From positions 16,575,208 through 16,639,207 of the forward strand of contig OX387609.1 in assembly GCA_947568835.1 (NCBI GenBank): DNA of 64,000 bases. The letters are read 5' to 3'. Made by a program: the position numbers and the translations under genes. Below are positions 27,995 to 64,000 of this stretch, piece after piece; the stretch's first letter is position 1, and every line of letters starts with the position of its first letter. Origin of the DNA: Protonemura montana. Its lineage: Eukaryota; Arthropoda; Insecta; Plecoptera; Nemouridae. Under the pieces are notes generated by a model. It was given only the letters and a program-made list of their open reading frames with translations. It was not told where the DNA came from and did not search any database.

Positions 27995-30900
27995 TTAACC
28001 TTATATAAAAGCCTTAAAATGTGATGTTCAACTTTTTAGTTTGTGGGTGGGTGGCTGGCTGGCTGGCTGGGATGTAACCGGCCGCTCTACTGGTTATGGA
28101 AATTGTGAAATGAGACTCAAAACGTACGAAAATGGGCTAGAATTTTTCATAATTAACTTTTCCATTGGCAGGCGACATTTTCACAGCGATTTAAAATCGT
28201 GTTAATGGTGAAAAGTTGCTAAATATGACGGCAAGATATCTCAGAGCCAGGCAATACAGCTCGATTTTTAAAACTCTTTTTATACCAAAGTTTTTCTAGC
28301 CTTGAGCTCCACGGTTATTTTTCATGCATTTGTAATAAAGTTGTTGATGTAATTGAGAAAAAACACATTCAATTGCGATCGTTTAACGTGAAAAAGAATT
28401 AATTTTGCTAATAAACTGACAGCTTTGATCAATTGTTTGCTTTTTTGACACCACGGCAAGGTGTACGAAATCGTGAATGTATCTTTTCGGCAGTGCATTT
28501 AGGAAATACAAACGTCAAATTTAAACGTCAAAGTCAACGTCAATGTCAAATTCAATTTCAAAATCTCCAAAACTGAACGGAAAAACGTGTGAAATTGGCT
28601 TCTATTGTTCAAATACAGTTTAAAATCCCGCTTCGTCTTTTTCACGATGATTTAAAAGTGTTTTAGTATAGTAAAGTATCAAAAATATTGTTGGTGTTCG
28701 GCTATCAAGATACAAAAGAGTCACTTGATTGATCTCGACATTGTATGGTATTGTATATGATTGTATTATACTGCATGGTATTGTATGGTATTTTATTGTT
28801 ATGTATGGTATTCTTTGGTATTGGATGTTTTTGGATGGTATTTAATATTATTTTTCTATATTGTATGGTATTGAATGAAAATGTATGGTATTCTTTAGAA
28901 TTCGACAGTATTCTATGGTATTCTATGGTATTCTATGGTATTCTATGGTATTCTATGGCGTTCTATGGTGTTCTATGGTGTTCTATGGTGTTCTATGGTG
29001 TTCTATGGTGTTCTATGGTATTCTATGGTATTCTATGGTATTCTATAATATTCTATTAATTTCTATGGTATTCTATGGTATTCTATGATATTCTATGGTA
29101 TTCTATCGTATGCTATGGTATTATATGGAGTGCTATGGTATTCTATGATATTCTATGGTTTTCTATGGTATTATATGGTATTCTATTGTATTGTACGGTA
29201 TTCTATGGTATTCTATGGTATTCTATGGTATTCTGTGGTGTTCTATGGTATTCTATGGTATTCTATGGTATTCTATGGTATTCTACGGTATTTTATGGTA
29301 TTCTATGGTATTTTATGGTATTCTATGGTATTCTTTAATATTCTATGAAGTTCTATGGTATTCTATGATATTGTATGGTATTGTATGGTATTTTTTGGTA
29401 TTGTATGGTATTGTATGGTATTCTATGGTCTTCTACGGTATTCTATGGTATTCTATGGTATTCAATGGTTTTCTATGGTATTTTATAATAATCTACGGAG
29501 TTCTATGGTATTATATGGAGTTAATGGTATTCTTTGGTGTTCTATAGTGTTTTATGGTGTTCTATGGTTTTCTATGGTGTTTTATGGTATTCTATTGTGT
29601 TCTATGGTATTCTATTGTGTTCTATGGTATACTATTGTGTTTTATGGTATTCTGTGGTGTTCTATGGTATTCTATGGTATTCTATGGTATTCTATGGTAT
29701 TTTATGGTATTTTATGGTATTCTATGGAGTTCTATGGTATTCTATGATATTCTTTGCTATTCTATGGTATTCTTTGGCATTCTATGGTATTCTTTGGTAT
29801 TCTATAAAGTTTTATAGTATTCTATTATATACTATGGTATTTTATAGAGTTCTTTGGTATTCTATGATATTCTATGGTATTCTATGGTATTCTATGGTAT
29901 TCTATGGTAATCTATGGTGTTATATGGTGTTTTATGGTGTTCTATGGTATTCTATGGCATTCTATGGTATTCTATGGTATTCTATGGTATTCTATGGAGT
30001 TCTATAGAATTCTATGGATTTCTATGGTATTATATTGTTATCTAAGAATTATATGGTATTCTTTGGTATTCTATGGTATTCTATGGTATTTTATGGTATT
30101 CTATGGTATTCTATGGTATTCTTTGGTATTCTATGGAGTTCTATGGTATTCTTTGATATTGTATGGTATTCTATGGTATTCTATGGAAATATGATTTTAT
30201 TGTATGGTATTGTATGGTTTTCTATGGTTTTCTATGGTATTCTATGGTATTATATGGTAATCCATGGTATTCTATGGTATTCTATAGTATTCTATGGTAT
30301 TCTATGGTATTCTATGGTATTCTATAGTATTCTTCGGTATTCGAAGGTATTCTTTGGTATTCTATGGTATTCTTTGATATTGTATGGTATTCTATGGTAT
30401 TCTATGGAATTCTATGATATTGTATGGCATTGTATGGTATTCTATGGTATTCTATGGTATTCTTTGATATTCTATGGTATTCTATGGTATTATATGGAAT
30501 TCTATGATATTCTATGGTATTCTATGGTATTCTATGGTATTCTATGGTATTGTATTGTATTCTATGGTATCCTATGGTATTGTATGGTATTGTTAGGTTT
30601 TGTTTGGAAGTGTATGGTATTTAATGTTTTTGGATGGTATTCTATGAAATTTTATGGGTTTCTTTGATATAATATGGTTCTCTATGGTATTTGGAGGTAT
30701 TCGATAGTATTATTTGGAATCCTATGATGTTGTATGGAATGGTATGGTTTTCCATATGTTCCTATGGGTTTCTTTATTATTTTATGGTATTTTTTGGTAT
30801 CCTCTGGTATTTTATGAGTTTCAATGGATTTCTATGGTATAAGAAGATACTTTATGGTGTTGTTAGGAATTGAATGTTATTCGATGATACAGTTTGGTAT

Positions 30901-31138
30901 TCGTAGGTATTGTATGGTATTGTATGGTATTGTATGATATTGTTTGGTATTTTATGGGTTTGTTTGGTATTTTATGGCATTTTATGGTATTGTATTGTAT
31001 TGAATGGAATTTTATGGTTTTCTTAGGGTTTCTTTGGTATTGAATGGTTTTCTATCAAAGAAAACTCGAGACACGTTTAAACCAAAATGCCCACTCCCTC
31101 AAAATCGTAAGGTGCCGTTAGGCAGCGGGTACTGCTAG
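27995..31138 (+). mobile_element. Non-autonomous Helitron N1
   Basis: Starts TTAACCTTATATAAAAGC and ends with the 28-bp hairpin terminus at 31111-31138. That terminus has a TGCC-GTTA-GGCA stem-loop, then GCGGGTACTGCTAG. The first roughly 480 bp match all other elements of the array; a 10-bp minisatellite fills 28742-31053. No gene. It is the first element of the head-to-tail array, with unique host sequence on its left. Confidence 0.82.
28742..31053. repeat. 10-bp minisatellite (TATGGTATTC)n in N1
   Basis: About 230 units of TATGGTATTC with frequent TATGGTGTTC and TATGGTATTG variants. Long forward frames (repeating MVFYGILWYS) are by-products of a stop-free unit. Confidence 0.96.
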
Positions 31139-34100
31139 TTAACCTTATATAAAAGCTTTAAAATGCGATGTTCAACTTTTTAGTTTGTGGCTGGCTGGCT
31201 GGGTGGGTGGCTGGCTGGGATGTAACCGGCTGCTCTACTGTCTATGGAAATTGCGAAATGCGACTCAATACGTACGGAAATGGGCTAGAATTTTTCAGAA
31301 TGAACTTTTACATTGGCAAGCGAGATTTTCACAGCGATTTAAAATCGTTTTCATGGTGAAAAGTTGCTAAATATGACGGCAAGATATCTCAGAGCCAGGC
31401 GATGCAGCTCGATTTTAAAACTCTTTTAATACTGAAGTTTGTCTAGCCTCGAGCTTTGCGTTGATTTTTCATGCATTCGTAATAAAGTTGTTGATGTAAT
31501 TGAGCAAAAACACATACAATTGCGATCGTTTAACGTGAAAAAAGAATTAATTTTGCTAATTAACTGACAGCTTTGATCAATTGTTTGCTTTTTTGGCACC
31601 ACGGCAAGGTGTACGAAATCGTGAATGTATCTTTTTGGCAGTGAACCTAGGCTATACAAACGTCAAATTTAAACGTCAAAGTCAACGTCAATGTCAAATT
31701 CAATTTCAAAATCCCCGAAACTGAACTGAAAACGTGTGAAATTGGCTTCTATTGTTCAAATACAGTTTTACATCCCGCTACGTCTTTTTCACGATGATTT
31801 AAAAGTGTTTTAGTAAAGTAAAGTATCAAAAACATTGTTGGTGTTCGGCTATCAAGATACAAAAGAGTCACTTGATTGATCTCGACATTGTTTGGTATTG
31901 TATATGATTGTATTATACTGCATGGTATTGTATGGTATTGTATGGTATTTTATTGTTATGTATGGTATTCTTTGGTATTGGATGTTTTTGGATGGTATTT
32001 AATATTATTGTTTGATATTGTATGGTATTGAATGAAAATGTATGGTATTCTTTAGTATTCGACAGTATTCTATGGTATTCTATGGTATTCTATGGTATTC
32101 TATGGTATTCTATGGTGTTCTATGGTGTTCTATGGTATTCTATGGTATTCTATGGTATTCTATGGTATTCTATGGTGTTCTATGGTGTTCTATGGTGTTC
32201 TATGGTGTTCTATGGTGTTCTGTGGTGTTATATGGTGTTCTATGGTATTCTATGGTATTCTATGGTATTCTATGGTATTCTATAATATTCTATGAATTTC
32301 TATGGTATTCTATGGTATTGTATGGTATTGTATGGTATTGTATGTTATTCTAAGGTATTCTTTGGTATTCTTTGGTGTTATATGGTGTTCTATGGTGTTC
32401 TATGGTGTTCTATGGTATTCTATGGTATTCCATGGTATTCTATGGTATTCTTTAATATTCAATGAAGTTCTATGGTATTCTATGATATTGTATGGTATTG
32501 TATGGTATTGTATGGTATTATATGGTATTCTATGGTATTTAATGGTTTCTATGGAGTTATATGGTATTCTATGATATTGTATGGTATTCTATGGTCTTCT
32601 ATGGTATTCTATGGTATTCTATGGTATTCAATTGTATTCTATGGTATTTTATAATATTCTACGGAGTTCTATGGTAATATATATGGAGTTAATGGTATTC
32701 TATGGTGTTTTATGGTGTTCTATTGTGTTTTATGGTTTTGTTTTGTGTTCTATGGTGTTCTATGGTATACAATGGTATTCTATGGTGTTCCATGGTGTTC
32801 TATGGTGTGCTATGGTATTCTATGGTATTCTATTGTGTTCTATGGTATTCTTTGGTGTTCTATGGTATTCTAAGGTATTCTATGGTATTCATGGTATTCT
32901 ATGGTATTTTATAATATTCTATGGTATTCTATGGAGTTCTATGGTATTCTATGATATTGTATGGTATTCTATGGTATTCTATAATATTCTTTGGTATTAT
33001 ATGGTATTCTATGGTAATCTATGGTGTTCTTTGGTATTCTATGGTGTTCTATGGTATTCTATGGCATTCTATGGTATTCTATGGATTCCTATAGTATTCT
33101 GTTGTAATCTAAGAATTCTATGGTATTCTATGGTATTCTATGGTATTTTATGGTATTTTATGGTATTATATGGTATTCTTTGGTATTCTTCGGTATTCTT
33201 AGGTATTTTTTGGTATTCTATGGTATTCTTTAATATTCTATGGTATTCTAAGGTATTCTATGGAGTTTTATGGTATTCTTTGATATTGTATGGTATTGTA
33301 TGGTATTCTATGGAATTCTATGATATTGTATGGCATTGTATGGTGTTCTATGGTATTCTATGGCATTCTAAGATATTCTACGGTATTCGATGGTATACTA
33401 TGGTATTCTATGGTATTCTATGGTATTCTATGGTAATCCATGGTATTCTATGGTATTCTAAGGTATTCTAAGGTATTCTATGGTATTCTATGGTATTCTT
33501 TAGTATTTTATGGTATTCTATGGTATTCTATGGTATTCTATAGTATTCTTTGGTATTCGAAGGTATTCTTTGGTATTCTATGGTATTCTTTGATATTGTT
33601 TGGTATTCTATGGTATTCTATGGAATTCTTTGATATTGTAAGGCATTGTATGGTATTCTATGGTATTTTATGTTATTCTTTGATATTGTATGGTATTCTA
33701 TGGTATTCTATGGAATTCTATGATATTGTATGGTATTGTATGGTATTGTATGGTATTGTTTGGTATTGTATTCTATTCTATGGTATTCTATGGTATTGTA
33801 TGGTATTGTTTGGTTTTGTTTGGAAGTGTATGGTATTAAATGTTTTTGGATGGTATTCTATGAAATTTTATGGGTTTCTTTGATATAATATTGTTCTCTA
33901 TGGTATTTGGAGGTATTCGATAGTATTATTTGGTATCCTATGATGTTGTTTGGAATGGTATGGTATTCCATATGTTCCTATGGGTTTCTATATTATTTTA
34001 TGATTTTTTTTGGTATCCTCTGGTATTTTTTGAGTTTCAATGGATTTCTATGGTATAAGAAGATACTTTATGGTGTTGTTAGGAATTGAATGGTATTCGA

Positions 34101-35876
34101 TGATACAGTTTGGTATTTTTAGGTATTCTATGGTATTGTATGGTAGTGTATGGTATTCTATTGTATTGTATGGTATTCTAGGTCCCCTTTGGTATTGTAT
34201 GATATTGTTTGGTATTTTATGGCATTTTATGGTATTGTATTGTATTGAAAGGAATTTCATGGTTTTCTATCAAAAAAAACTCGAGGCATGTTTAAACCAA
34301 AATGCCATGGTATGCCCAGTTAATGGTATTCTATGGTGTTCAATGGTGTTCTATGGTGTTTAATGGTATTCTATTGTGTTCTATGGTGTTCTATGGTATA
34401 CTATGGTATTCTATGGTGTTCTATGGTGTTCTATGGTGTTCTATGGTGTGCTATGGTATTCTATGGTATTCTATTGTGTTCTATGGTATTCTTTGGTGTT
34501 CTATGGTATTCTATGGTATTCAATGGTATTCTATGGTATTCTATGGTATTCTTTGGTATTTTATAATATTCTATGGTATTCTATGGAGTTCTATGGTATT
34601 CTATGATATTGTATGGTATTCTATAGTATCCTATGGTATTCTTTGGTATTCTATGGAGTTCTATAGTATTCTATTATATACTATGGTATTCTATAGAGTT
34701 CTTTGGTATTCTTTGATATTCTTTAGTATTCTATGGTGTTCTATAGTATTAAATGGAGTTCTATGGTATTTAATGGAGTTCTATAATATTATATGGAGTT
34801 AATGGTATTCTTTGGTGTTCTATGGGGGTCTATGGTGTTTTATGTTATTCTTTTGTGTTCTATGGTGTTCTATGGTATTCAATGGTATTCTATGGTGTTC
34901 TATGGTGTGCTATGGTTTTCTATGGTATTTAATTGTGTTCTATGGTATTCTTTGGTGTTCTATGGTATTCTATGGTAATCTATGGAATTCTATGGTATTC
35001 TATGGTATTCTATGGTATTTTATGGTATTTTTATGGTGTTCTATGGTATTCTATGGAGTTCTATGGTATTCTATGATATTTTCTGGTATTCTATGGTATT
35101 CTATGGCATTCTATGGTATTCTTTGGTATTCTATGGAGTTCTATAGTATTCTATTATATACTATGGTATTCTATAGAGTTCTTTGGTATTCTATGATATT
35201 CTATGGTATTCTATGGTCTTCTATGGTATTCTATGGTATTGTTTTGTATTTTATGGTATTCTATGGTATTGTATGGTATTGTTTGGTTTTGTTTGGAAGT
35301 GTATGGTATTAAATGTTTTTGGATGGTATTCTATGAAATTTTATGGGTTTCTTTGATATAATATGGTTCTCTATGGTATTTGGAGGTATTCGATAGTATT
35401 ATTTGGTATCCTTTGATGATGTATGGAATGGTATGGTATTCCATATGTTCCTATGGGTTTCTATATTTTTTTATGGTATTTTTTGGTATCCTCTGGTATT
35501 TTATGAGTTTCAATGGATTTCTATGGTATAAGAAGATACTTTATGGTGTTGTTAGGAATTGAATGGTATTCGATGATACAGTTTGGTATTTTTAGGTATT
35601 CTGTGGTATTGTATGGTATTGTATGGTTTTCTATTGTATTGTATGGTATTCTAGGTCCCCTTTGGTATTGTATGATATTGTTTAATATTTTATGGGTTTG
35701 TTTGGTATTTTATGGCATTTTATGGTATTGTATTGTATTGAATGGAATTTCATGGTTTTCTTAGGGTTTCTTTGGTATTGAATGGTTTTCTTTCAAAGAA
35801 AACTCGAGACACGTTTAAACTAAAATGCCCACTTTCTCAAAATCGTAAGGTGCCGTTAGGCATCGGGTACTGCTAG
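31139..35876 (+). mobile_element. Non-autonomous Helitron N2, probably two fused elements
   Basis: Same 5' start (31139) and 28-bp 3' terminus (35849-35876). Inside the minisatellite, at 34268-34306, is a piece of a Helitron 3' subterminal region (TATCAAAAAAAACTCGAGG, then TTTAAACCAAAATGCC) without the hairpin. The roughly 420 bp before it (33840-34262) resemble the ends of the arrays at 30620-31050 and 35310-35790. The simplest reading is two neighbouring elements joined by a deletion that removed one 3' end and one 5' end. Confidence 0.78.
31890..35790. repeat. 10-bp minisatellite in N2, interrupted at 34268-34322
   Basis: The same TATGGTATTC family as in N1, broken by the internal 3'-end remnant. 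Confidence 0.94.
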
Positions 35877-36864
35877 TTAACCTTATATAAAAGCTTTAAA
35901 TTGCGATGTTCAACTTTTTAGTTTGTGGGTATATGGGTGGATGGGTGGCTGGGATGTAACCGGCCGCTCTACTGGTTATGGAAATTGCGAAATGAGACTC
36001 TAAAGGTACGAAAATGGGCTAGAATTTTTCAGAATTTACTTTTACATTGGCAGGCGACATTTTCACAGCGATTTAAAAGCGTTTTCATGGTGAAAAGTTG
36101 CTAAATATGACGGCAAGATATCTCAGAGCCAGGCGATGCAGCTCGATTTTTTAATTCTTTTAATACTCAAGTTTTTCTAGCCTCGAGCTCCACGGTGATT
36201 TTTCATGCATTCGTATTAAAGTTGTTGATGTAATTGAGCGAAAACACATTTAATTGCGATCGTTTTACGTGAAAAAGAATTAATTTTGCTAATAAACTGA
36301 CAGCTTTGATCAATTGTTTGCTATTTTGTCACCACGGCAAGGTGAACGAAATTGTGAATGTATCTTCTCAGCAGTGGATCATCAGGCCAAATTAAACGTC
36401 AAAATGGATTGAAATGTCAAACTATCTACTAAAACCCCTTTGTTTCTGGCGAAAATCGGTCAAAAACGACAGGAAATGGTTATAATTTGTACATGATTTC
36501 AAAGCATTATATGAAACGCGACATTTTTTAAGGTGAGTTGATGGGATACGGCGATTTAAACAGGACTTTAAATGCAACTTCATATGAAACAGGTAGGTAA
36601 AGAAAAAGTTTGACTCTTTACAGGCGTAAAAATTGTATTTTTATTGCACATTTTGTGCTCAATTGTGTTTCTTTAATAAGTTTTCAGATATATTTAGTAA
36701 TTATTTAACCCGTAATTAATAAGCTAACCTCTAAAGACACATTATTATGATCACTGACCGCAATAATTTGACTTCTGTTATATTCATTTACAGCGTGTTG
36801 CATCGACAGCTTCTTATGGCACGTAATTTAAATCGTCGCGCGTGGTGTAAAGTTTGAATTTCCG

Positions 36865-36872
36865 TGACGTCA
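36865..36872. promoter_or_regulatory. CRE-like TGACGTCA site 1 in A1
   Basis: Perfect 8-bp palindrome recognised by CREB/ATF bZIP factors, followed by TTTTACGTAGCGGG. Conserved at 51932-51939 in A2. Together with the second site it marks the likely promoter of the transposase gene. Confidence 0.5.
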
Positions 36873-36983
36873 TTTTACGTAGCGGGATGTTGGCTTAGCG
36901 CTTTTTGATCGGCATCTACGCTCGGCAATTAGTCACACTCCCAACGCCCGCCAACCGCCATTTGCTATAGCAGTTAGTCTAGC

Positions 36984-37046
36984 ATGAGAGTGCGGATTAC
37001 CTACACGGCGAAACACGGGGAAGAATTTCGTCGCTATTCAAGGTAA
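36984..37046 (+). CDS. Upstream short ORF of Helitron A1 leader
   Basis: ATG followed by 19 further codons (MRVRITYTAKHGEEFRRYSR) and TAA. The stop overlaps AAGGTAATC, a good splice-donor match. A2 has the same frame lengthened by exactly two codons. It may be a translated upstream frame, or a leader exon spliced to the CACAG just before the main ATG. Splicing there would not preserve the main frame. Confidence 0.35.
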   Translation: MRVRITYTAKHGEEFRRYSR

Positions 37047-37226
37047 TCTTATTTCAGATTTAATTTGCATGTCACAATATCCACTAATAGTCCACCCCTA
37101 ATGTCATCAAGTGATTCAATTATTTATAGTGATTTTATAGCGTTTAGCTTCTAAATTATGATTAAAATTGTCGTTCATCATCAAGACTGGAAAGCATACA
37201 TTTTGCCCGTCTTGTGGATATTTCCG

Positions 37227-37234
37227 TGACGTCA
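37227..37234. promoter_or_regulatory. CRE-like TGACGTCA site 2 in A1
   Basis: Second TGACGTCA in the A1 leader, matched at 52296-52303 in A2. It lies about 310 bp upstream of the main ATG. Confidence 0.45.
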
Positions 37235-37539
37235 CTTTTACGTAACATGATGCAATCGCTCGACGCGATTCTCATCCCCCTCCCCAACCCTCCCATGCCC
37301 TCCGTTCCAACAATTAGAAGTGTGTTCAAAATGGCGTCCAAGCTCGCATTCGAAGCAAATTAGCATATTTCTTTGTAAAGAAACTGAAGTGATTGTTGTG
37401 CATATTAAAGCATGCATTTAGACTGGCATGATATTTGGGTGAGGTAATTTTTGCGAAACATGGCGGTCGGTTCGTCCTCAGCCACGCTCCGCTTCAGCTC
37501 GGCGACGCTAGGCACTAAAACCTCGCTTTCTTCACACAG

Positions 37540-43929: not shown

Positions 43930-43990
43930 AATTTTTTTAAGGTCACAATCTTACTTTCGTGTCGGTCTTTTTACTGCATGTTTCTCTTTT

Positions 43991-51939: not shown

Positions 51940-52049
51940 TTTTACGTAGCGGGTTGTTGGTTACCGCTTTTTGATCGGCATCTACGCTCGGCAATTAGTC
52001 ACACTCCCAAAGCTCGCCAACCGCCATTTGCTATAGCAGTTAGTATAGC

Positions 52050-52118
52050 ATGAGAGTGCGGATTACCTACACGGCGAAACACTCTTGTGGGGAAGAATTT
52101 CGTCGCTATCCAAGGTAA
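52050..52118 (+). CDS. Upstream short ORF of Helitron A2 leader
   Basis: ATG plus 21 codons (MRVRITYTAKHSCGEEFRRY then PR) and TAA. It differs from A1 by a 6-bp in-frame difference (S-C) and one substitution. The stop overlaps AAGGTAATC, as in A1. Confidence 0.35.
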   Translation: MRVRITYTAKHSCGEEFRRYPR

Positions 52119-52295
52119 TCTTATTTCAGATTTAATTTGCATGTCACAATATCCAGTAATAGTCAACCACTAATATCATCAAGTGATTCAATTATTTATA
52201 GTGATTTTATAGCGTTTAGCTTCTTAATTATTAAAATTATCGTTCATCATCAAGACTGGAAAGCATACATTTTGCCCGTCTTGTGGATATTTCCA

Positions 52296-52303
52296 TGACG
52301 TCA
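52296..52303. promoter_or_regulatory. CRE-like TGACGTCA site 2 in A2
   Basis: Counterpart of 37227-37234; about 310 bp upstream of the ATG. Confidence 0.45.
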
Positions 52304-52610
52304 TTTTTACGTAACATGATGCAATCGCTCGACGCGATTCTCATCCCCCTCCCCAACCCTCCCATGCCCTCCGTTCCAACAATTAGAAGTGTGTTCAACA
52401 TGGCGTCCAAGCTCGCATTCGAAGCAAATTAGCATATTTCTTTGTAAAGAAACTGAAGTGATTGTTGTGCATATTAAAGCATACATTTAGCCTGGCATGA
52501 TATTTGCGTGAGGTCATTTTTATTGAACATGGCGGTCGGTTCGTGCTCAGCCATTCCCGCGTCAGCTCGGCTACGCTAGGCATTACTAAAGCCTCGCTTT
52601 CTTTACACAG

Positions 52611-55600
52611 ATGCCACCTAAGAAGCGTGTAAATCTGACGTCTCGGAAAGGCGGGAAAGGTGCAACGGCAAGAGCAGAGAGCGCGGCGGCGAAGAAAAGG
52701 GCTGCTGCTGACGAGAGAGCGAGGACGAGAGAGACGGCCGAGCACGCCGACCATCAGGCGACTGCTAGCCCGTCGACGTCGACGCTTGACGAGCAGCGTC
52801 CTTTTCTTTCCGCTATTCTCGAAGAAGCCCCGGTGAGTGTCTTAAAGCATGATTCATTATTAGAACAGGCCGCCCCCGTTTCTCTTCCAGCTTTTTATGA
52901 TCAACCCTCTACAAGCCGCTATATGCATTCCTTTCCCGACAATGTGCCATCTGTGCTCCCATCCCTTGACCAGACCCAGATCCTGGAAAATTCAGTTGGC
53001 CAGCTACAAGAGGACAAGAAAGTGCAAGTAGCAGCAAACGAACGGAGTGCCCGACTAGCGGAAAAAGCTAGAAATGCTCGCCAGCGCAGAAAGGCTGAGG
53101 ATGAGGCCCAGCGTCTTCTGCGTCTGGCCCAGGTTGCCGAGTCGAAGCGTCGACGACTAGACGAAGCTTCTGAGGGACGACGCCTACAGCTTCTTGCTGA
53201 AAAGGCTGAGTCTGAGCGCCTCCGCTTGGCAAAATGTACCGAAGAACAGCGCCTTCAGCGACTGGCCCTTAAGGCAGAGGCAGAGCGTCGCCGCTTGAGT
53301 GACGAAGCTGACCAACAGCGCCTTCAGCGACTAGCCCTTAAGGCAGAAACAAAGCGTTGCCGCTTGAGTGACGAAGCTGACGAACAGCGCCTTCAGCGAC
53401 TGGCCCTTAAGGCAGAGTCAAAGCGTCGCCGTTTGAGTAACGAAGCTGACGAACAGCGTCTTCAGCGATTGGCCCTTAAGGCAGAGGCAGAGCGTCATCG
53501 CTTGAGTCACGAAGCTGACGAACAGCGCCTTCAGCGACTAGCCCTTAAGGCAGAGGCAGAGCGTCATCGTTTGAGTGACGAAGCTGACGAACAGCGCCTT
53601 CAGCGATTGGCCCTTAAGGCAGAGGCAGAGCGTCATCGCTTGAGTGACGAAGCTGACCAACAGCGCCTTCAGCGACTAGCCCTTAAGGCAGAGTCAAAGC
53701 GTCGCCGCTTGAGTGACGAAGCTGACGAACAGCGCCTTCAGCGATTAAGCCAGAAGGCAGTCCAAACGCAGTGTGAAAGGCAGCATGAGACTCCAGAGGC
53801 GCGCGAGAGCCGATTAGTCGCCGCGCGGGAGCGATCTCAGCAGCGTCGAAATGCCGAGACCAGAGATAAGCTCGCGGCGTTCGAAGTGGAAGTCTCTCAG
53901 CGCGCTGAGGAGGAGGCGTCTCAACGCGCCCAAGAGGCTGAACTAGAGCAAAGCCAGCGAGTCGCGGTCGAGGCTATTGACGTGGCAGACGATCAGTTCG
54001 AACCTGATCTTGCTCCAGTGAACCTTCATCCTTTCCACTTGGAAGCTGCCCGGCAAGACGTCGCTGACGTCGCCCTATTTCACTGCGGCAGCATGGACGA
54101 AGTATGCAGGGTGTGCGGCGCTCTGTACTTCGCAGGAGAGCGTCCATCTGACAAAATTTACAAACTCTGTTGTCACTCGGGCAACGTAATCCTCGAGCCT
54201 CTCCTCGCGTATCCCGATTTAATGCATGCGTTGCTGACCGGAGACCATTGCGAGTCTAAGAACTTCCGCAAAAACATCCGGTCGTACAACAGTTCGCTCT
54301 CCTTCGCTTCAGTCGGAGTTAAGACGGACATCCCCCAGGGCCGTGGCACATACTGTTTTCGTGTCCATGGCAACATCCAGCATAGGATCGGCCATATGGG
54401 GCAGGCGGTGCAGAAGCCCCTCTATTCGCACCTGTACTTTCTTGACGCGGAACAAGCGAAGACGCATCGAATGGACAGGCGCCAGAATGCTAATCTGCTA
54501 CCCAACCTGCTTCATGAGCTGGACGCGCTGGTTCGCGAAATAAATCCTTTTGCCCAAGGGCTTAAAACGTTAGGTCAGGTGGAGGCCGACGACAGGATCC
54601 GTGCAGCTGCCGAGGGGCGACCCGAGGTCATGGCCGAACTGCGTTTCGTGGATGACCGACGGCGGCTGTACGAAAATCCTACGGCCCACGAGGTGGCCGT
54701 TGTTTATCAGAGCGTTGACGGTGGCATGCCTCCTCTAGGACGTGATATTCGTATCCATACTCGTGGCGGATTTATTGAGCAGCTGTCTGTCCTGTCGCCC
54801 AACACGGATCCGCTCAGCTACGTGCTGTTGTTCCCGCGTGGAGAACCCGGCTGGCAACGAGGTATGCCGCACACCAGGCAATCTAAGCACAGCGTCGTCA
54901 CTCTAATGGAGTTTTATAGCCATCGACTCCACGAGCGTGTCGGCGCCTTCCATCCAGTGCTGCACGCCGGCAAGCTGACGCAGCAGTTTATGGTAGATGC
55001 CTATATCAAGGTTGAGGGAAATCGCCTTGAGTTCGTCATCAGGAACCAGAAAACGCTGCGCGCCGAACTCTACAGTGGGCTCATGGACCACTTGGCGAAC
55101 CGTGCTGAGCGGCAGGGCTGCAATGTCGGGAAGATGGTGATTCTGCCTTCCAGTTTCATCGGAAGCCCCAGGCATTGCCAGCAGCTATATCAAGACGCTA
55201 TGAGTATCGTCACCAAGTTTGGAAAACCCGATCTTTTCCTTACTATGACGTGTAATCCGAAGTGGCCTGAGATTCAGACGAGCCTAGCGGCGTACGAAAG
55301 GGCAGAAGACCGACCCGATCTCACCGCGCGAGTATTCCAACTTAAACTCAAGGAGCTCATGTCTGATCTCACCAAGAGGCACGTGCTGGGCGTTCCCATG
55401 GCTCACTTCCACGTGATCGAGTTCCAAAAACGTGGACTCCCTCACGCTCACATCCTGGTAATCCTTCGCGACGAGGACAAGATCCGCACTCCCGAGGAGG
55501 TAGACGCACTTATCTGTGCCGAGTTGCCCGATCCGGTGACCGAGGAGAGACTGCACAAGGTCATCGTGTCGTCGATGATCCACGGCCCGTGCGGCGCTCG

Positions 55601-58361
55601 GAACATGTCCTCTGTGTGCATGGAGGACGGAAAGTGTAAGAAGAAGTTCCCCAAGTCGTTCACAGATGTGACTGTGGTCAACGAGGGGGGTTTCACCGTC
55701 TATCGCCGTCGAGAGAGCGGGCAGACGCATACCATCTCAGGAAGAGTGGTCGATAACCGAGACGTAGTGCCTTACAACAAGTACTTAAGCTCCAAGTTTG
55801 ACTGCCACCTGAACATCGAGCACTGTGGATCCGCGAAGACGGTCAAGTACCTGTGCAAGTACGTGTACAAAGGTCACGACTGTGCCAGGGTCCAGCTCCG
55901 CGTCTCTGTCCCCGCGGAGGGCGATCATGAGCCACGTCCAGCGCACGGTGCCCAGCAAGAGTTGGTGTGGGACGAGGTCTCACAGTTCATCGACTCTCGC
56001 TACGTGAGTCCCCAAGAGGCTGCGTGGAGAATTTTCGGATTTGAAATGCACGAAAAGCCGCACACTATCATCCGTTTGGCGATCCACCTCGAGGGTGACC
56101 ACATGGTCACGTTCCGTCCTGGAGACGAGGAAGCCGCAGCAGAACGCGGCAGGGCTGCGCTGACTACGCTGACGGCATGGTTTGCGCTGAATAGTAGCAA
56201 CCCGGCGGCACGGCAGTACAAGTACATCGACATCCCGTACCACTTCCGTTTCGAGGGCAAAGCGTGGAAGCCACGAAAGCGAGGTGCCGGCTCCATCATC
56301 AGCCGAATGTACTCCGTGACGCCCCGGCAGATCGAGCGATACCATCTTCGTCTCCTTTTGCTACACGTCGCCGGCGCCACCTCATTCGAGGACGTGCGCA
56401 CGTTCCAGGGTAGGGTTTACGCTACCTTCAAGGAAGCTGCCATCGCACGCAACCTGCTAATGGACGACGACGAGTGGCAGAAATGTCTGCAGGAAGCGGT
56501 TGCTATAAAGATGCCAAACGAACTTCGTCAGCTGTTTGCCATCATTTGCGCGTTCTGTCAGCCTCTTGACCCGCTGTCTCTATGGGAGCGTTTCAAGGGC
56601 GATTTCTGCGAAGATTTCGCCCGAGAACACGACCCCATCGAGGCAGAACAGTTGGCCCTGAATTCCATCCAGTCCGTCCTTGCCCTACACCGCCTGACCA
56701 ACGCCGAAATCGGTTTGCCAGCGCCTCGAGTGCCAGTCATCGTTGCTGTCGACGAGCAGTTCGACCAGACCGCCGAAAGGGAAGAGGCCGAGGAGAACTT
56801 GGTGAAGCTCAACGGCAGGCAGCGCGTGGCATTCGACGCGGTGATGGCAGCAATCGACGACCCGAACGCCGAGCAGAGGTGCTTCTACCTGGACGGCCCG
56901 GGCGGCTGCGGGAAGACCATCCTATACAACACCCTCATCAGCACGCTGCGAGCCCGAGGCGAGCGAGCCGTGGCCGTCGCGTGGACGGGCATTGCGGCGA
57001 CGTTACTGAAGGGAGGGAGGACCTGCCACTCGCGATTTCGATTGCCTGTTCCGATTGTGGAAAACAGCACGTCTGGCGTGAAGCCCAACTCCGCCGAGGG
57101 CGCTTCGCTGAGGGCGGCCAAGGTCATCATCTTGGATGAAGGACCCATGGCGCCTCTGCTGGCCCTGAACGTGATCGAGCGGACGCTAAGAGACGTGACC
57201 AACGATGAGCGTCCGTTCGGCGGAAAGGTGATCGTTATCGGCGGGGATTTTAGGCAGTGCCTCCCAGTCGTTCGAAATGGCAACCGAACGACCATTGTCG
57301 AGCAATGCATTAAGCGTGGCGCGCTTTGGTCGTTGTTCCGCACCCTCGAGCTGCGCGCGAACATGCGCGCCAACCCAGGCGAAGTAGAGTTCGTCGAGTG
57401 GCTCTTGCGTGTCGGAAACGGCGAGATTTTGAATGACTGCCACCTCCCGGATGACACCATCGCATTACCTGTCCAATGCGTCGTGGACTGCGTCATTGAC
57501 GCCGTCTTCGGCACGAGCATTAGTGCTGCCGAGATGGCCGTGATGCAAGACCATGCCATCCTCTGCCCGAAGAACGTGGAGTCTTTGAACATCAATGACA
57601 ACGTTCTTGAGCGCCTCGAAGGTGACGTGTTCGAATACTGCAGCGCCGACACTGTCGATGTCAGTGAAGGCGAAGATGGCGACGTTTTGGCTACCGATTA
57701 TCCCGTAGAATATCTAAATTCATTAACGCCATCCGGGATGCCACCGCACAAGCTTCGTCTGAAAGTTCATGCAATCGTGATGCTCATGAGGAACGTCGAC
57801 GTGAGAGCCGGCCTATGCAATGGGACTCGACTCAGCGTTGTTGCACTCCACGAGCACGTGATCGACTGCAGGATCATCGGAGGGCGCTGTGCGGGACGAC
57901 GCACTTTCCTATGTAGAGTCAACCTAACTCCCTCGGACATTGGCATGCCCTTTACGATGACAAGGCGCCAGTTTCCGATCCGTCTGGCATTCGCCATGAC
58001 CATCAATAAAGCCCAGGGTCAATCTTTAAAGAGGGTGGGAATTCATTTAGAAAAACCAGTATTCGGACACGGTCAGCTATACGTGGCGCTTTCTCGGGCT
58101 CGCTCTTTGGACTCGATCTTCGTGGCAGTCGCCGGTAACGAGGCGCAGGGAAAGTTGATCGTCTCGAGCAACACCACCTTCACCAAGAACATCGTGTACC
58201 AGGAGGTGCTCGAGATTCATGCGCCGGACCACCAGGCAGCGGATCCTTCCTCGCGTAGTGGCTATCAAGAGGCTGACCAGCAGGCCCTTGAGCAGTCGCT
58301 TAGTCAACTCGCTGTATCGGATGCGGATGAAGAAGTTCCAATGGACGCCTCCTCCTCCTAA
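52611..58361 (+). CDS. Helitron transposase: Rep (HUH) nuclease fused to PIF1-type helicase
   Basis: Intact 1916-codon frame. The N-terminus is basic (MPPKKRVNLTSRKGGKG), a possible nuclear-localisation signal. Residues about 150-430 form a charged coiled coil with seven 23-residue repeats of the LALKAESKRRRLSDEADEQR type. A zinc-finger-like cluster follows (C492, C499, C502, then CCH near 520). Rep: FLTMTCNPKWPEIQ, the HUH pair H945-A-H947 in GLPHAHILVIL, and tyrosines Y1080 and Y1084 in YLCKYVYK. Helicase: Walker A G1429-PGGCGK-T1436, Walker B D1509-E1510, IGGDFRQCLPVV, and a C-terminal FAMTINKAQGQSL and YVALSRARS. The last 30 residues hold a ubiquitin-interacting-motif-like EADQQALEQSLSQL. 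By family knowledge it nicks and unwinds DNA for rolling-circle transposition. A TAA lies in frame upstream of the ATG, and TTTCTTTACACAG sits immediately before it. Confidence 0.94.
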   Translation: MPPKKRVNLTSRKGGKGATARAESAAAKKRAAADERARTRETAEHADHQATASPSTSTLDEQRPFLSAILEEAPVSVLKHDSLLEQAAPVSLPAFYDQPSTSRYMHSFPDNVPSVLPSLDQTQILENSVGQLQEDKKVQVAANERSARLAEKARNARQRRKAEDEAQRLLRLAQVAESKRRRLDEASEGRRLQLLAEKAESERLRLAKCTEEQRLQRLALKAEAERRRLSDEADQQRLQRLALKAETKRCRLSDEADEQRLQRLALKAESKRRRLSNEADEQRLQRLALKAEAERHRLSHEADEQRLQRLALKAEAERHRLSDEADEQRLQRLALKAEAERHRLSDEADQQRLQRLALKAESKRRRLSDEADEQRLQRLSQKAVQTQCERQHETPEARESRLVAARERSQQRRNAETRDKLAAFEVEVSQRAEEEASQRAQEAELEQSQRVAVEAIDVADDQFEPDLAPVNLHPFHLEAARQDVADVALFHCGSMDEVCRVCGALYFAGERPSDKIYKLCCHSGNVILEPLLAYPDLMHALLTGDHCESKNFRKNIRSYNSSLSFASVGVKTDIPQGRGTYCFRVHGNIQHRIGHMGQAVQKPLYSHLYFLDAEQAKTHRMDRRQNANLLPNLLHELDALVREINPFAQGLKTLGQVEADDRIRAAAEGRPEVMAELRFVDDRRRLYENPTAHEVAVVYQSVDGGMPPLGRDIRIHTRGGFIEQLSVLSPNTDPLSYVLLFPRGEPGWQRGMPHTRQSKHSVVTLMEFYSHRLHERVGAFHPVLHAGKLTQQFMVDAYIKVEGNRLEFVIRNQKTLRAELYSGLMDHLANRAERQGCNVGKMVILPSSFIGSPRHCQQLYQDAMSIVTKFGKPDLFLTMTCNPKWPEIQTSLAAYERAEDRPDLTARVFQLKLKELMSDLTKRHVLGVPMAHFHVIEFQKRGLPHAHILVILRDEDKIRTPEEVDALICAELPDPVTEERLHKVIVSSMIHGPCGARNMSSVCMEDGKCKKKFPKSFTDVTVVNEGGFTVYRRRESGQTHTISGRVVDNRDVVPYNKYLSSKFDCHLNIEHCGSAKTVKYLCKYVYKGHDCARVQLRVSVPAEGDHEPRPAHGAQQELVWDEVSQFIDSRYVSPQEAAWRIFGFEMHEKPHTIIRLAIHLEGDHMVTFRPGDEEAAAERGRAALTTLTAWFALNSSNPAARQYKYIDIPYHFRFEGKAWKPRKRGAGSIISRMYSVTPRQIERYHLRLLLLHVAGATSFEDVRTFQGRVYATFKEAAIARNLLMDDDEWQKCLQEAVAIKMPNELRQLFAIICAFCQPLDPLSLWERFKGDFCEDFAREHDPIEAEQLALNSIQSVLALHRLTNAEIGLPAPRVPVIVAVDEQFDQTAEREEAEENLVKLNGRQRVAFDAVMAAIDDPNAEQRCFYLDGPGGCGKTILYNTLISTLRARGERAVAVAWTGIAATLLKGGRTCHSRFRLPVPIVENSTSGVKPNSAEGASLRAAKVIILDEGPMAPLLALNVIERTLRDVTNDERPFGGKVIVIGGDFRQCLPVVRNGNRTTIVEQCIKRGALWSLFRTLELRANMRANPGEVEFVEWLLRVGNGEILNDCHLPDDTIALPVQCVVDCVIDAVFGTSISAAEMAVMQDHAILCPKNVESLNINDNVLERLEGDVFEYCSADTVDVSEGEDGDVLATDYPVEYLNSLTPSGMPPHKLRLKVHAIVMLMRNVDVRAGLCNGTRLSVVALHEHVIDCRIIGGRCAGRRTFLCRVNLTPSDIGMPFTMTRRQFPIRLAFAMTINKAQGQSLKRVGIHLEKPVFGHGQLYVALSRARSLDSIFVAVAGNEAQGKLIVSSNTTFTKNIVYQEVLEIHAPDHQAADPSSRSGYQEADQQALEQSLSQLAVSDADEEVPMDASSS

Positions 58362-58702
58362 ATCCTATCATTGTACTATCCCTTGCATTTGCAATAGCGG
58401 TAACATTTCCTAGATAAATTTAAATTCAGTAAGGCTAGGTAGGGCAGACCAGGAACCGTGACTAGCACGGCAGGTAGCAACCCAATTCCCATATATTTCA
58501 CCATGCTGACACGCTTTTCTGCTGCAGGTATAAAGCACCGGACGCCGCATAGCCCTTTAACTTCACGACCATTGCGCTCGCATGTGGACACTCTAACGGA
58601 ACTGCTCCTCCCAGAGCTAGACAATTATGCATGTACATTAATTGATAGATTATATTGTACATACATTTAGTAAAGTAGTTACTTCTAACTAATAGTATTA
58701 GA

Positions 58703-59157
58703 AATGCAACCTGCTGTTTTCCATCTGCATGTCATGCATGTTCAAAAAAACAAAAACACAAAAAAAAATATCATAGATTTAGTAAAGTAGTTACTAAGTA
58801 GTAAGTAGTAGTAGTTGGTTAGTAAGTAGTGAATAGTTATGCAACCTGCTGTTTTCCATCTGCATGTCATGCATGTTCAAAAAAAAAAAAAAAAAAAAAA
58901 AAAATATCATAGATTTAGTAAAGTAGTTACTAAGTAGTAAGTAGTAAGTAGTAGTAGTAGTTGGTAAGTAAGTAGTTAATAGTTATGCAACCTGCTGTTT
59001 TCCATCTGCATGTCATGCATGTTCAAAAAAACAAAAAAACAAAAAAAAAATATCATAGATTTAGTAAAGTAGTTACTAAGTAGTAAGTAGTAGTAGTAGT
59101 TGGTAAGTAAGTAGTTAATAGTTATGCAACCTACTGTTTTCTATCTGCATGTTTGCA
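58703..59157. repeat. About 136-bp tandem repeat, A2 3' region
   Basis: Counterpart of 43487-43929, with longer A-rich tracts (about 26 A in one unit near 58880). Confidence 0.85.
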
Positions 59158-59217
59158 ATTTTTTTAAGGTCACAATCTTACTTTCGTGTCGGTCTTTTTA
59201 CTGCATGTTTCTCTTTT

Positions 59218-59473
59218 CTTGATTCTATCTTGAAATGTCAAACCAACTATCCACCAAGCATGATAGCATTGCACCAGCCGAAAAGCTGAACAATGCATCC
59301 TACCTATCCGACACAGTTGATCCTTGCATGAATCTCTGCATCTCTCTTCTCGATTCCATCTTAGAATGTCAAACCAACTAACAACCAAGCATGACAGCAT
59401 TACACCAGTCTAAAAACTGAACAATGCATCCTACCTATCCGACACAGTTGATCCTTGCATGAATCCTTGCATG
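59218..59473. repeat. 131-bp tandem repeat, 2 units, A2 3' region
   Basis: Counterpart of the three-unit array at 43991-44376. Confidence 0.85.
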
Positions 59474-59566
59474 TCCGCACATCAGAGATTCCTGTTGCTT
59501 GCAACGGGCTGCACAATCTTTGATAGTGTAAGGCAGAGGCGATGTAGTGTGCGACGATCGCCATGC

Positions 59567-59593
59567 TGCCGGGGCGGGATGGGGGCCCCGGCA
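59567..59593. other. GC-rich hairpin in A2 3' region
   Basis: Identical to 44471-44497: TGCCGGGGC and GCCCCGGCA arms with a G-rich 9-base loop. Confidence 0.7.
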
Positions 59594-60451
59594 TAACAAA
59601 TATTTTTAAAATTCTCTCACTTAACAGCTTGAATACATTTAGAAACTTTTCATTTCTCCAAGAATGGTGCCTCTCTCTTGCTGTCTTTTTTATTTTGTTT
59701 TAGACCCCCCCTCCCCCTGCCAATCGTGGAGAAGGAACTTCTTCATGGCACCATTGCGGAGATTACTTTCAATTACGAATGAACAGTGGCGATACTGCGA
59801 CATGGTTGGTCTGCATTGACTGTTGCTTTCAAATGGTCAAAGTTTTCAACGCAAATCGTCGTAAACATGTGAATATTTCTTATATTTGTAAGAATGATCA
59901 TAATATTGGCAAATAAAAATTACAATAATTAATTGGTACATTTTTTTTTGTTTAATCTTCAAAAAAAAACCTTCGTCACTGAAACCAAACCAAAAATATT
60001 TGTAATGATTCCTTTCTGTCCAAAAAGCACACCAAATGGTTGTGTCCTTATAAGCAATGCTGCTGGTTAGCCATCATCGTTGAAGGTACTGGCGGAAATC
60101 AGGTATAGTATGGTACATCAAGTCGTAATGGCATAATACTTTGTTTTCTTTACATTTTCTCAGTACTTTATTTTGTTGTCCCATAAAAGTTTCTTAAATG
60201 TATGCGTAGAGGCTACATTAAGTGTAAAGTCTCAGTTCGATCCCAGGGCTTAGGGACTAGATTTTGGCCTAGGCCCATATATTTTTGTCATGATCTATCC
60301 TATCGGCATATGCCCTATGGGCATAGGGTACTAGAAAAATAGTAGTGAGCTATTTGTCATTGTTGATCAAAGTTCAAAGACAATACTAATACTAAAATAA
60401 AACCACTAGGGATAAGAACAACAGGTGCCGTTAGGCATCGGGTACTGCTAG

Positions 60452-63400
60452 TTAACCTTATTAACCTTATATAAAAGCTTTAAAATGCGATGTTCAACTT
60501 TTTAGTTTGTGGGTATATGGGTGGGTGGATGGCTGGCTGGCTGGGATGTAACCGGCCGCTCTACTGGTTATGGAAATTGCGAAATGCGACTGAAAACGTA
60601 CGGAAATGGGCTAGAATTTTTCAGAATTAACTTTTCCATTGGCAGGCGACATTTTCACAGCGATTTAAAATCGTTTTCATGGTGAAAAGTTGCTTAATAT
60701 GACGGCAAGATATCTCAGAGCCAGGCGATGCAGCTCGATTTTATAATTCTTTTAATACTCAAGTTTTTCTAGCCTCGAGCTCCACGGTGATTTTTCATGC
60801 ATTCGTATTAAAGTTGTTGATGTAATTGAGCGAAAACACATTCAATTGCGAACGTTTTAAGTGCAAAAAGAATTAATTTTGCTAATAAACTGACAGCTTT
60901 GATCAATTGTTTGCTATTTTGACACCACGGCAAGGTGTACGAAATCGTGAATGTATCTTTTCGGCAGTGAACCTAGGCTATTCAAACGTCAAAGTCAACG
61001 TCAAAATAAACGTCAAAGTCAACGTCAATGTCAAATTATTTTCGAAATCTCCAGAACTGAAGGGAAAACGTTTGAAATTGGCTCATATTGGTTCATAATT
61101 CAGGTTTACATCCTGCTACGTCTTTTTCACGGTAATTTAAGGTGTTTTATTATTATTATAGTAAAGTATCAAAAATATTGTTGATGTCTTGGCTAGCAAG
61201 ATGAAAAATAGCCACTTGACAAGCCCGTGGACTTCTTGAGGAGGTTATTTACACGTCAAAAAGGTTTGGAAAGTTAAACAATCTATTAACACAACTATTG
61301 GAATCTTTTGTAAATATATATAAATATATTTATTGTAAAAAATATACGAAAGACGAGAAATTTCTTAAAATACAACGATTTTTTTCCATCCCCAGCCTAG
61401 ACAAGATCACACAGTTGATTCCAAGCCAGCAATGATATTTGTGACAATTATGTAAATCAATAGCAATCCTAACTTTCTTTGCAGGTCTTTAAGATTTTGA
61501 ATAGGGTTTTTAAACAAACAAAACACACTTGATTAGTTTTTTATTCGTGATTTTGCCAAAACTAGATTAAGAGTGACATTGACAGATCAAAGATAAACAT
61601 TTGACAGATATCTTTCATCGAATCAGGACGCCGTGGATATTAATTTTATTTTCGAGGATGCCGTGATCATTCAACAGGTATTTAAATTTAAAACGTCATT
61701 AATGACAGAGTGCAGTTTTATCAAATCTAATCCAAATACGCAATCTAAGTTTAATATAGTTTTCTATGGAATTATCTAATATTGTGTAGTACTTTATGGT
61801 GTTATATGGTAGCCTATGGTATTCAATGGTATTCTATGGTATTCTATAGTATTCTATGGTATTCTATGATATTCTATGGTATTCTATGGTATGCTAGGGT
61901 ATTCTATTGTATTCAATGTAATTATATGGTATTCTATGATATTCTATGGTATTCTATGGTATGCTATGGTATTCTATGGTATGCTATTGTATTCTATGGA
62001 GTGCTATGGTATTCTATGGTATTCTATGGTATGCTATGGTATTCTATGGAGTGCTATGGTATTCTATGGTATTCTATGATATTCTATGGTATTCTATGGT
62101 ATTCTATGGTATTCTATGGTTTGCTTTAGTATTCTATGGTATGTTTTGGTATTCTATGGTATTCTATTGTATTCTATGGTATTCTATGGTATGCTTTGGT
62201 ATTCTATGGTATTCTATTGAATTCCATGGTTTTGTTTTGTTTGTTTAGTATTGTATAAGTATTCTTTGGTATTATTTAGTATTCTATGGTATTGTATGGC
62301 ATTTTTTGGTCTCTTTTGGCAGTGTTTGGTGTTGTATGTAATTGTATGGTATTCTCTGGGATTTTATGGGATTTTATGGTACTCTATAGTGTTGTATGGA
62401 ATTTTATGGTATTCTACGGAATTCAATAGTATTTTATGGTGTTCTATGGTATTCTATGGTGTTGTATGGAATTGTATGGTATTACATAGTATTTTATGGG
62501 TTTCTATGGTATTGTATGGTAATGTATGATGTTGTTTGATATTGTATGTTATTGTATATTATTGTATGGTACTGTATGGTAATGTATGGTATTTTATGGG
62601 TTTCTATGGTATTGTATGTTATTCTATAGTATTCTTTATTTTTCTATGGTATTCTATGGTATTCTATTGGTTTCTATGGTATTGTATGGTGTTTATGGTA
62701 TTCGATGGTATTCTATGGTGTTGTATTGAATTGAATGGTATTCTATGGTGTTGTATGGAACTTTATAGTATTCTATGGTATTTTATGGGTAACTTTTGTA
62801 GTGTATGGTATTGTATGGTATTGTATGGTATTGTATGGTATTGTATGGCTTTGTATGGTATTCTATGGGTTTCTTTGGTATTGTATGGTTCTCTATGGTA
62901 TTGTATGGTATTGTTTAATATTTTATGGAAGTGTATGGTATTTTTTGGTTTTTTATGGCATTCTATGGTATTCTATGAGTTTTTTTGGTATTGTATGGTA
63001 TTATTTCATATTATATAAGTGCGTTTGATATTGAATGGTTTTGTGTGGTATTCTATGGTATTGTATGGTAATGTAAGGTATTCAATGGGTTTCAATGGTA
63101 TTTTTTAGTATTCAATTGTTTTGTATGGAAATATATGGTATGCTATGGTATTGTATGGTATTGTTTGGTATTGTTTGCTTTTCTTTGGTATTTTTGGTAT
63201 TCTATGATGTTGTATGGAAATTTATGGTATTCTAAGGTATTGAATGGTATTCTATGGTATTTTATGCGTTTCTTTGGGTTTCTATAGTATTATATGGAAT
63301 TTTATGGTGTTGTTAGGAATTGAATTGTATTCGATGGTATTGTATGGTATTGCATGGTTCATTTGAACGTGGTCCTTTTTAGAGGCTTTGGATAGGGCAT

Positions 63401-63483
63401 CAAAGAAAACTCGACAAACGTTTTAACTAAAATGCCCACTCCCTCAAAATCGTAAGGTGCCGTTAGGCAGCGGGTACTGCTAG
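60452..63483 (+). mobile_element. Non-autonomous Helitron N4
   Basis: The 5' end is duplicated: TTAACCTTA at 60452 is followed at once by TTAACCTTATATAAAAGC at 60461. 28-bp terminus at 63456-63483. It shares its internal section with N3 and carries the 10-bp minisatellite at 61754-63359. Confidence 0.85.
61754..63359. repeat. 10-bp minisatellite in N4
   Basis: TATGGTATTC family, with a TATGGTATGC variant common in the first half and TATGGTATTG in the second. Confidence 0.94.
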
Positions 63484-64000
63484 TTAACCTTATATAAAAG
63501 CTTTAAATTGCGATGTTCAACTTTTTAGTTTGTGGCTGGGTGGCTGGCTGGGTGGATGGGTGGCTGGGATGTAACCGGCCGCTCTACTGGTTATGGAAAT
63601 TGCGAAATGCGACTGAAAACGTACGAAAATGGGCTAGAATTTTTCAGTATTAACTTTTCCATTGGCAGGCGACATTTTCACAGCGATTTAAAATCGTTTT
63701 CATGGTGAAAAGTTGCTAAATATGACGGCAAGATATCTCAGAGCCAGGCGATACAGCTCGATTTTTAAAACTCTTTTAATACTCAAGTTTTTCTAGCCTG
63801 GATCTCCACGGTGATTTTCCATGCATTCGTTTTAAAGTTGTTGATGTAATTGAGCGAAAACACATTCAATTTCGATCGTTTTACGTGCAAAAATAATTAA
63901 TTTTGCTAATAAACTGACAGCTTTGATCAATTGTTTGCTTTTTTGACACCACGGCAAGGTGTACGAAATCGTGAATGTATCTTTTCGGCAGTGAACCTAG
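63484..64000 (+). mobile_element. Helitron N5, 5' part, cut by window end
   Basis: Starts TTAACCTTATATAAAAGC directly after N4. All 517 visible bases match 45359-45875 (N3) without a difference that I can see. The array therefore continues beyond the window. Confidence 0.85.

Follow-up and report, generated by a model that had tools for sequence, protein, structure and literature searches.

Mixed head-to-tail arrays of Helitrons in Protonemura montana and a reading of their growth by insertion of single units at resident elements

We examined a 64,000-nucleotide stretch of the genome of Protonemura montana (Plecoptera; contig OX387609.1, here C12:16575208-16639207, in a genome of 258.5 Mb in 34 contigs), hereafter the window, whose right part is occupied by Helitrons, a family of rolling-circle transposons, standing head to tail. 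Seven exact copies of the left-end sequence TTAACCTTATATAAAAG were found, all on the + strand (27995, 31139, 35877, 45359, 48359, 60461 and 63484), where 0.48 are expected at up to 3 mismatches and seven were reached in 0 of 100 shuffles, along with six exact copies of the right-end sequence GGGTACTGCTAG (31127, 35865, 45347, 48347, 60440 and 63472). These seven starts and six ends bear out the initial annotation, which had described head-to-tail Helitrons, gene-carrying and gene-less ones mixed, all on the + strand. At five of the six junctions the CTAG closing one element directly abuts the TTAACC opening the next (CTAG/TTAACC, with the slash marking the border), and there the claim that no sequence lies between elements holds; it fails at the border of the units A2 and N4, where nine extra bases (TTAACCTTA; 60452..60460, +), element-like rather than host-like, copy the first 9 nt of an element. 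Left of the first unit the host sequence ends in ...TTTAA/TTAACC, confirming that with TTAACC as the start this unit is flanked by A and T.

All units of the window lie on the + strand. The leftmost, N1 (27995..31138; 3,144 bp), is a complete non-autonomous Helitron delimited by end searches and by a host edge of A/T at 27994/27995, and it has in common with the units A1 and A2 the first ~500-530 bp and the last 29 bp. The next, N2 (31139..35876; 4,738 bp), is likewise complete and non-autonomous, with a body of ~10-bp ATGGTATTCT-like repeats. A1 (35877..45358; 9,482 bp) is an autonomous-type Helitron with both ends, whose transposase frame is interrupted near 39.02 kb, and its transposase region (37540..43144) comprises two frames, 37540-39042 with STPR repeats and 39179-43144 with Rep and helicase. 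N3 (45359..48358; 3,000 bp) has copies elsewhere by full-length comparison. It is followed by A2 (48359..60451; 12,093 bp), an autonomous Helitron with one uninterrupted transposase frame, which also holds a pentanucleotide (GCATA) array (49695..50602) and a 41-bp minisatellite (50694..51417), and then by N4 (60461..63483; 3,023 bp) and N3', which begins at 63484 and fills the window to 64000.

The array is larger than the window shows and continues rightward. In 20 kb read beyond the window, N3' proved to be 3,000 bp long (63484-66483), and further starts at 66484, 70230 and 72932 delimit units of 3,746 and 2,702 bp, followed by an autonomous-type unit that runs past the 20 kb. Same-strand Rep copies and N3-like junctions extend to C12:16,749,178, ~146 kb from the array start, over a stretch read in part. 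Element types alternate locally in the window, as the initial annotation stated, but on contig C7 they come in runs (A A N A A N N N N N A ...).

The transposase of A2 (52611..58361, +) is a single uninterrupted frame of 1,916 aa in which STPR repeats, a Rep domain and a PIF1-like helicase follow one another. The STPR repeats, 23 aa each, are encoded by 69-bp tandem repeats (53244..53744, +) whose copy number varies among elements, and a solved STPR protein, fibroin-modulator-binding protein 1, matches A2 (E 6.8e-5). The Rep (HUH) domain (PF14214, E 5.8e-61; aa 768-950, 54912..55460, +) carries the HAH motif (aa 945) and has a two-tyrosine motif downstream of it (aa 1079-1090), the protein showing both HAH and KYLCKYVYKGHD, and the helicase domain (PIF1, E 8e-56) covers aa 1399-1607 (56805..57431, +), so that HUH Rep, two tyrosines and SF1B helicase stand in one protein. 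Residues 375 to 1868 align with Helraiser (1,494 residues, 1,278 bits). Pfam hits of A2 and of both A1 frames (E up to 0.001) include no endonuclease domain, and we therefore regard the protein as a Helraiser-like RepHel and not a Helentron. Among the fetched units, 11 intact frames have lengths of 1824+23k aa (k 0 to 5), and pooled pN/pS over their last 1,480 codons is 0.14 (all pairs of the 11, which are not independent), a measure by which these frames show purifying selection.

Frame lengths differ by whole 23-aa STPR repeats (window 53244-53744 and 38173-38535), so that a DNA-binding-type repeat varies in copy number within one transposon family; no report pairing STPR with Helitrons was found in the papers searched. 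C7:69341-86301 and C7:195144 onward hold a diverged autonomous subfamily with ~82-90% protein identity to A2. Its gene is interrupted by a nested Helitron, and the Rep frame at C7:200673 equals it in length (956), which would fit a duplication of the interrupted copy.

Genome-wide we counted 973 exact 5' ends, 634 of which directly follow an upstream 3' end (386 with GGGTACTGCTAG and 248 with GGGTTCTGCTAG); the fraction 634/973, counted from assembly sequence, is a lower bound. Within C7:1-200000, 29 starts all lie on the + strand, 27 of them directly after a 3' end, the first after host A and one nested. A search with PF14214 gave 207 candidate Rep loci, of which the best 150, possibly biased toward intact copies, were scored: in 116 the frame is open over 1,800 aa or more, and in 89 it has exactly 1831+23k residues (k 0-5). 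C7 holds 45 and C8 33 of the scored loci, and successive scored copies less than 30 kb apart lie on the same strand in 98 pairs and on opposite strands in 4. The best explanation is that the family is active or very recently active. On C1, C2, C4, C5, C11 and C12 (C1 none), 42 of 53 scored loci lie within 2.2 Mb of a contig end, compared with 18% of the sequence, an end bias that is a lead only, as the cut-off was picked after the data were seen and the copies are clustered.

C7 and C8 both carry Rep copies in +/-/+ blocks and have some spacings and a junction with a 14-nt spacer in common; possibly they are two haplotypes of one region. A junction of the 2,991-bp type stands 7,904 bp before a Rep copy on both contigs (C7:680609, C8:663142); among the 40 of 1,619 matches scored, it is succeeded on C8 by three more at 2,991-bp steps and on C7 by none. 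A short subfamily of ~1.1 kb, mostly with the 3' end GGGTTCTGCTAG, forms arrays too (L001-L008, C1:281380-295226); there, a repeated block includes ~375 bp of host DNA, and at the start of the array the 11-nt 5' tip is doubled.

Helitron 3' ends carry CTRR with a hairpin ~10-12 nt upstream. The right end of this family spans ~29 nt, commonly as a 6-bp hairpin with a GTTA loop, 12 nt and CTAG (for example 45330..45358, +), and it agrees with that description in its CTAG, its 6-bp stem in the commonest ends and the 12 nt from stem to end. Six non-autonomous units on C12 resemble A1 and A2 over the first 499-534 bp (~90-93%) and the last 25-29 bp (96-100%), and these common stretches probably mark what is required in cis. 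The left end starts with TTAACC after host A and not with the canonical 5'-TC, a terminal dinucleotide called absolutely conserved in Helitrons (PMC5876387; this and the other papers cited here are drawn on in excerpt), and we therefore class the element as a Helitron with a non-canonical 5' end.

The base preceding exact starts outside junctions is A in 299 cases, T in 14 and C in 0, and by subtraction G precedes 660 starts. A nested 3.6-kb copy (C7:76078-79701) sits in the transposase gene of another element, and its flanks, mapped separately, adjoin in 15 paralogous units at A/T with no duplication (BLAST leaves a one-base gap at a mismatch, which a gapless reading removes); this fixes the element ends and an A/T target without duplication. 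Empty sites were suggested in the initial annotation as a means of finding the ends; the joined flanks of three other insertions (L034, L036 and one on C1) gave no clean one in the DNA searched, L036 lying in N-type repeats. In L036, a T-preceded case, counting one extra T as part of the element would restore A/T, as judged by eye. Together, the A 299, T 14, C 0 distribution, the nested copy at A/T and the Pfam hits free of endonuclease domains lead us to reject a TT-targeting Helentron/Helitron2, the assignment that the initial annotation had considered for a start at TAACC.

Near-identical units recur in different surroundings. N3 differs from N3' by 1 mismatch in 3,000 and from C4:343166-346165 by 1, and N3' differs from that C4 copy by 2; N3 and C7_u06 (C7:54093-57307) differ by 1 mismatch plus a 215-bp gap, and N4 is identical to C4:346166-349188 (0 mismatches in 3,023). 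The shared N3 and N4 units have different neighbours (left of the C4 copy of N3, for the last 3.2 kb read), and C7_u05 and C7_u14, nine units apart, are 99.8% identical. We compared six near-identical unit pairs, and in four (C7_u05/u14, N3/N3', N3'/C4 and N4/C4) the block of at least 99% identity ends no more than 66 bp from both borders, within the conserved ends. N3 and N4 touch on C4, whereas A2 stands between them in the window, which points to single-unit insertion at internal junctions, most clearly for A2. A second pair is split by one unit between A1/N3 in the window and u04-u05-u06 on C7, with A1-like copies 40 mismatches apart.

Order along C7 is unrelated to likeness, both for 11 A units (6 kb each; Mantel r 0.16, p 0.90) and for 14 N units (first 520 bp; r 0.05, p 0.67), with u11, u12, u20 and u29 (nested, mixed or cut) omitted. 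In the arrays fetched, blocks of at least 99% identity never extend over two complete units. With C7 neighbours no more alike than distant units and no two-unit block, amplification of an A-N unit, one of the two origins offered in the initial annotation, is not supported, even though a local tandem duplication of 4.7 kb exists on C7. A common ancestral junction for C7_u03/u04 and N2/A1 is not supported either.

The genome holds many such arrays, and elements with and without genes probably stand end to end in them because new copies tend to land on the cutting sites of residents. On balance, and with modest confidence, we favour the reading that units inserted one at a time where residents are cleaved, and that local duplication and homogeneous concatemers also played a part. 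Autonomous members, which measure 9-13 kb among those read, encode a Helraiser-like Rep-helicase with a variable N-terminal array of 23-aa STPR repeats, and non-autonomous partners have only the ~500-530 bp left end and the ~29 bp right end in common with them. In host DNA the family inserts between A and T, but most starts stand in arrays. On the reading we favour, a new copy would move as a single unit via a circle with joined ends (CTAG/TTAACC), a form that Helraiser makes and that transposes (PMC4778049), and would land exactly at a resident's transposase cleavage site, where the start of one left end is the end of the neighbour's right end. Every insertion would restore both cleavage sites, so that arrays would draw more insertions and grow, while unequal recombination and occasional multimers would add locally duplicated and homogeneous stretches. 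Repeated targeted insertion at the 3' ends of residents, the other origin in the initial annotation, survives here in its main part, the entry of single units at resident sites; its choice of end does not follow, as exact junctions do not tell entry at the left neighbour's 3' end from entry at the right neighbour's 5' end.

Several observations weigh against the reading we favour. The N3'/C7_u06 block ends at the 215-bp gap, and the N3/C7_u06 block continues for 1.1 kb in the units to the left, A1 and u05, which are of A type and resemble each other there. The comparison of A1/N3 with u04-u05-u06 is the weaker case and may reflect recombination, and the adjacency of N3 and N4 on C4 could come from loss of A2. 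Three complete 2,991-bp units, 0-1 base apart, stand in a row at C8:654001-664000, with four junctions at that spacing among the 40 of 1,619 candidates scored, a homogeneous array of the kind expected from concatemers or local duplication. Recombination inside arrays is shown by a repeated segment on C1 and by C7_u17-u20, where a shifted block of 4.7 kb forms a local tandem duplication. Growth solely at the left edge of an array, at an ordinary A/T, yields identical junctions, and the circle intermediate, the targeting of cleavage sites and the choice of resident end are inferred. Finally, if 9-nt spacers arose by insertion into a resident left end at TTA/TAT, CTAG/TATAAAAG remnants should lie nearby; one exists in the genome (on C14) and none on C12, and we rejected that origin.

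Rolling-circle read-through, in which the right end is skipped, multimers of one element integrate in tandem and recombination later mixes the order, is in our view an unlikely main cause, although it is the best placed of the alternatives. It was mentioned in the initial annotation as a source of tandem copies, and it is the published cause of bat, silkworm and plant arrays. It fits some arrays, such as the near-identical 2,991-bp units on C8, and would suit the adjacent C7_u09 and C7_u10, which are 96.7% alike, but it does not fit the mixed ones: likeness on C7 does not follow adjacency, near-identical units are non-adjacent in C7, C12 and C4, and most of their blocks end at unit borders. 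Moreover, a review describes the arrays of plants as truncated, many of them having one 3' end for several 5' ends, a pattern from which C7:1-200000 departs, with its 27 of 29 starts directly after a 3' end.

If arrays grew at their left edge only, each copy would enter the A/T formed by a host A and the leftmost resident's first T, growth would be leftward and the order of units would be their age order. Such geometry produces the interior G/T without any insertion at G/T, A does precede the array starts read on C12, C7 and, twice, C1, and insertion between a host A and a resident's first T is discussed for a maize pair (PMC2267711). Set against this, A2 lies inside a pair, N3/N4, that is contiguous on C4, which barring coincidence requires internal entry; the array start L035 is preceded by T; and the frequency of such events would still require targeting to a resident end. 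We consider this explanation improbable.

Host recombination, by unequal exchange, gene conversion or template switching, could also build and shuffle arrays from a few founding tandem pairs, with transposition a minor contributor. The shifted duplication in C7_u17-u20, the N3 block running into an A-type left neighbour on both C7 and C12, the repeated segment on C1 and the similar spacings on C7 and C8 would all be expected. Breakpoints, however, should then fall anywhere in homologous parts, whereas four of six pairs end at both borders, and copies on many contigs together with the 299 A-preceded starts show transposition, so that we give this explanation little credence as the main cause. 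An assembly artefact of collapsed or misjoined repeats is very improbable: the element is repetitive and C7 and C8 are of round size (925,000 and 890,000), but 634 exact junctions lie on many contigs with flanking units of differing sequence where read, and 34 contigs for 258 Mb suggests a long-read assembly.

Inexact junctions are rare compared with exact ones, with 13 spacers of 1-30 nt genome-wide vs 634 exact joints. Eight of the 13 match the beginning of the left end exactly (one TTA, two TTAA, two of 9 nt, one of 11 nt and two of 14 nt), two are TTAT, one is a variant-like left end and two are other sequence; 10 of the 13 end in A. The two spacers on C7/C8 may be copies of one event, and so may the two on C14. 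The short left-end pieces could arise when the right-end cut overshoots in a donor that is itself an array, or could be doubled 5' tips; doubled 5' ends are reported in Fusarium (PMC5148889). Under either origin junction variation clusters at the cleavage site. A second 9-nt case, at C12:16727835, lies between another A unit (best 841-bp match 96.8%, to A1) and N3 (550/550), and does not support a spacer travelling with A2 or N4. Two Rep copies lie in C14:936097-987105, together with a pair of identical spacer junctions separated by 31,290 bp, close to the sole CTAG/TATAAAAG of the genome, a pattern that suggests local duplication.

Among known systems the family most resembles Helraiser/Helibat1 of bats, with which it has in common Rep (HUH, two tyrosines) and a PIF1-like helicase matched over the aligned residues, an A/T target without duplication, CTAG-3' with an upstream hairpin and, in the mechanism proposed, joined-end circles (PMC4778049). 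It differs in its 5' TT instead of TC, in its variable N-terminal STPR array (Pfam finds none in residues 6-97 of the Helraiser chain) and in having most exact starts in head-to-tail junctions. Tandem Helitrons are reported in plants, bats and silkworm (PMC5876387, PMC4067079). The tandem centromeric Helitrons of plants (Xiong, Dooner and Du 2016, as cited) are likewise head to tail in many repeats, but unlike those truncated copies the units here mostly have both ends, are mixed and include many intact transposase frames. At maize r1 two different Helitrons meet at an exact CTAG/T joint explained by consecutive insertion (PMC2267711), a single pair, where the present genome has junctions by the hundred and arrays tens of units long. 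Helentrons and HINEs (PMC4067079) are also a rolling-circle family with non-autonomous partners, some with internal tandem repeats, but differ from the present elements, which lack an endonuclease domain among their Pfam hits and target A/T and not TT. A wheat study of 2026 describes a family that is active, forms circles and inserts at AT, and, in the parts available, reports no genomic tandem copies of the tested element. We found no report, in excerpts of the open-licence literature, of arrays at this scale in which autonomous and non-autonomous units are mixed, complete and intact; tandem Helitrons are known, and such arrays appear to be a new form of them.

The 41-bp minisatellite of A2 belongs to a family that is free-standing at window 1443-3886 and also lies within five autonomous-type units (among them A2, C7_u02, C7_u21, C7_u25 and W_u10), and it may have been either captured by a Helitron or seeded from one. 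The sequence left of the array (window 1-27994) is very rich in minisatellites, with units of 34, 41, 42, 13, 36, 20 and 64 bp. At window ~16979-19466 (+) lie exons of a gene for a UBR5-like HECT ubiquitin ligase; UBR5 structures match one frame, and the others were assigned by eye. A STING-like gene matches the nearest solved structures weakly (best 5cfl, E 3e-9), which we take to be from Nematostella.

The origin of tandem Helitrons, by read-through or by consecutive insertion, has been debated since 2007-2008 on few cases (PMC2267711, PMC4067079). In this genome exact junctions number in the hundreds and inexact ones 13, near-identical units stand in differing surroundings and 11 frames are intact among the units read, which makes the debate directly testable. 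Tentatively, we would go further and picture a self-targeting Helitron whose preferred target is the cleavage sites of residents, its arrays serving as landing platforms that renew themselves, collect autonomous and parasitic units alike, leave host genes alone and maintain over 100 intact-looking copies, and whose STPR array may set recognition of the platform. If this were true, natural and apparently intact animal Helitrons would be on offer, where Helraiser is a reconstruction from inactive copies (PMC5876387) and a natural active family is described from wheat; and a rolling-circle transposon would have a way of harming its host less, of building long satellite-like regions and of keeping its autonomous lineage alive.

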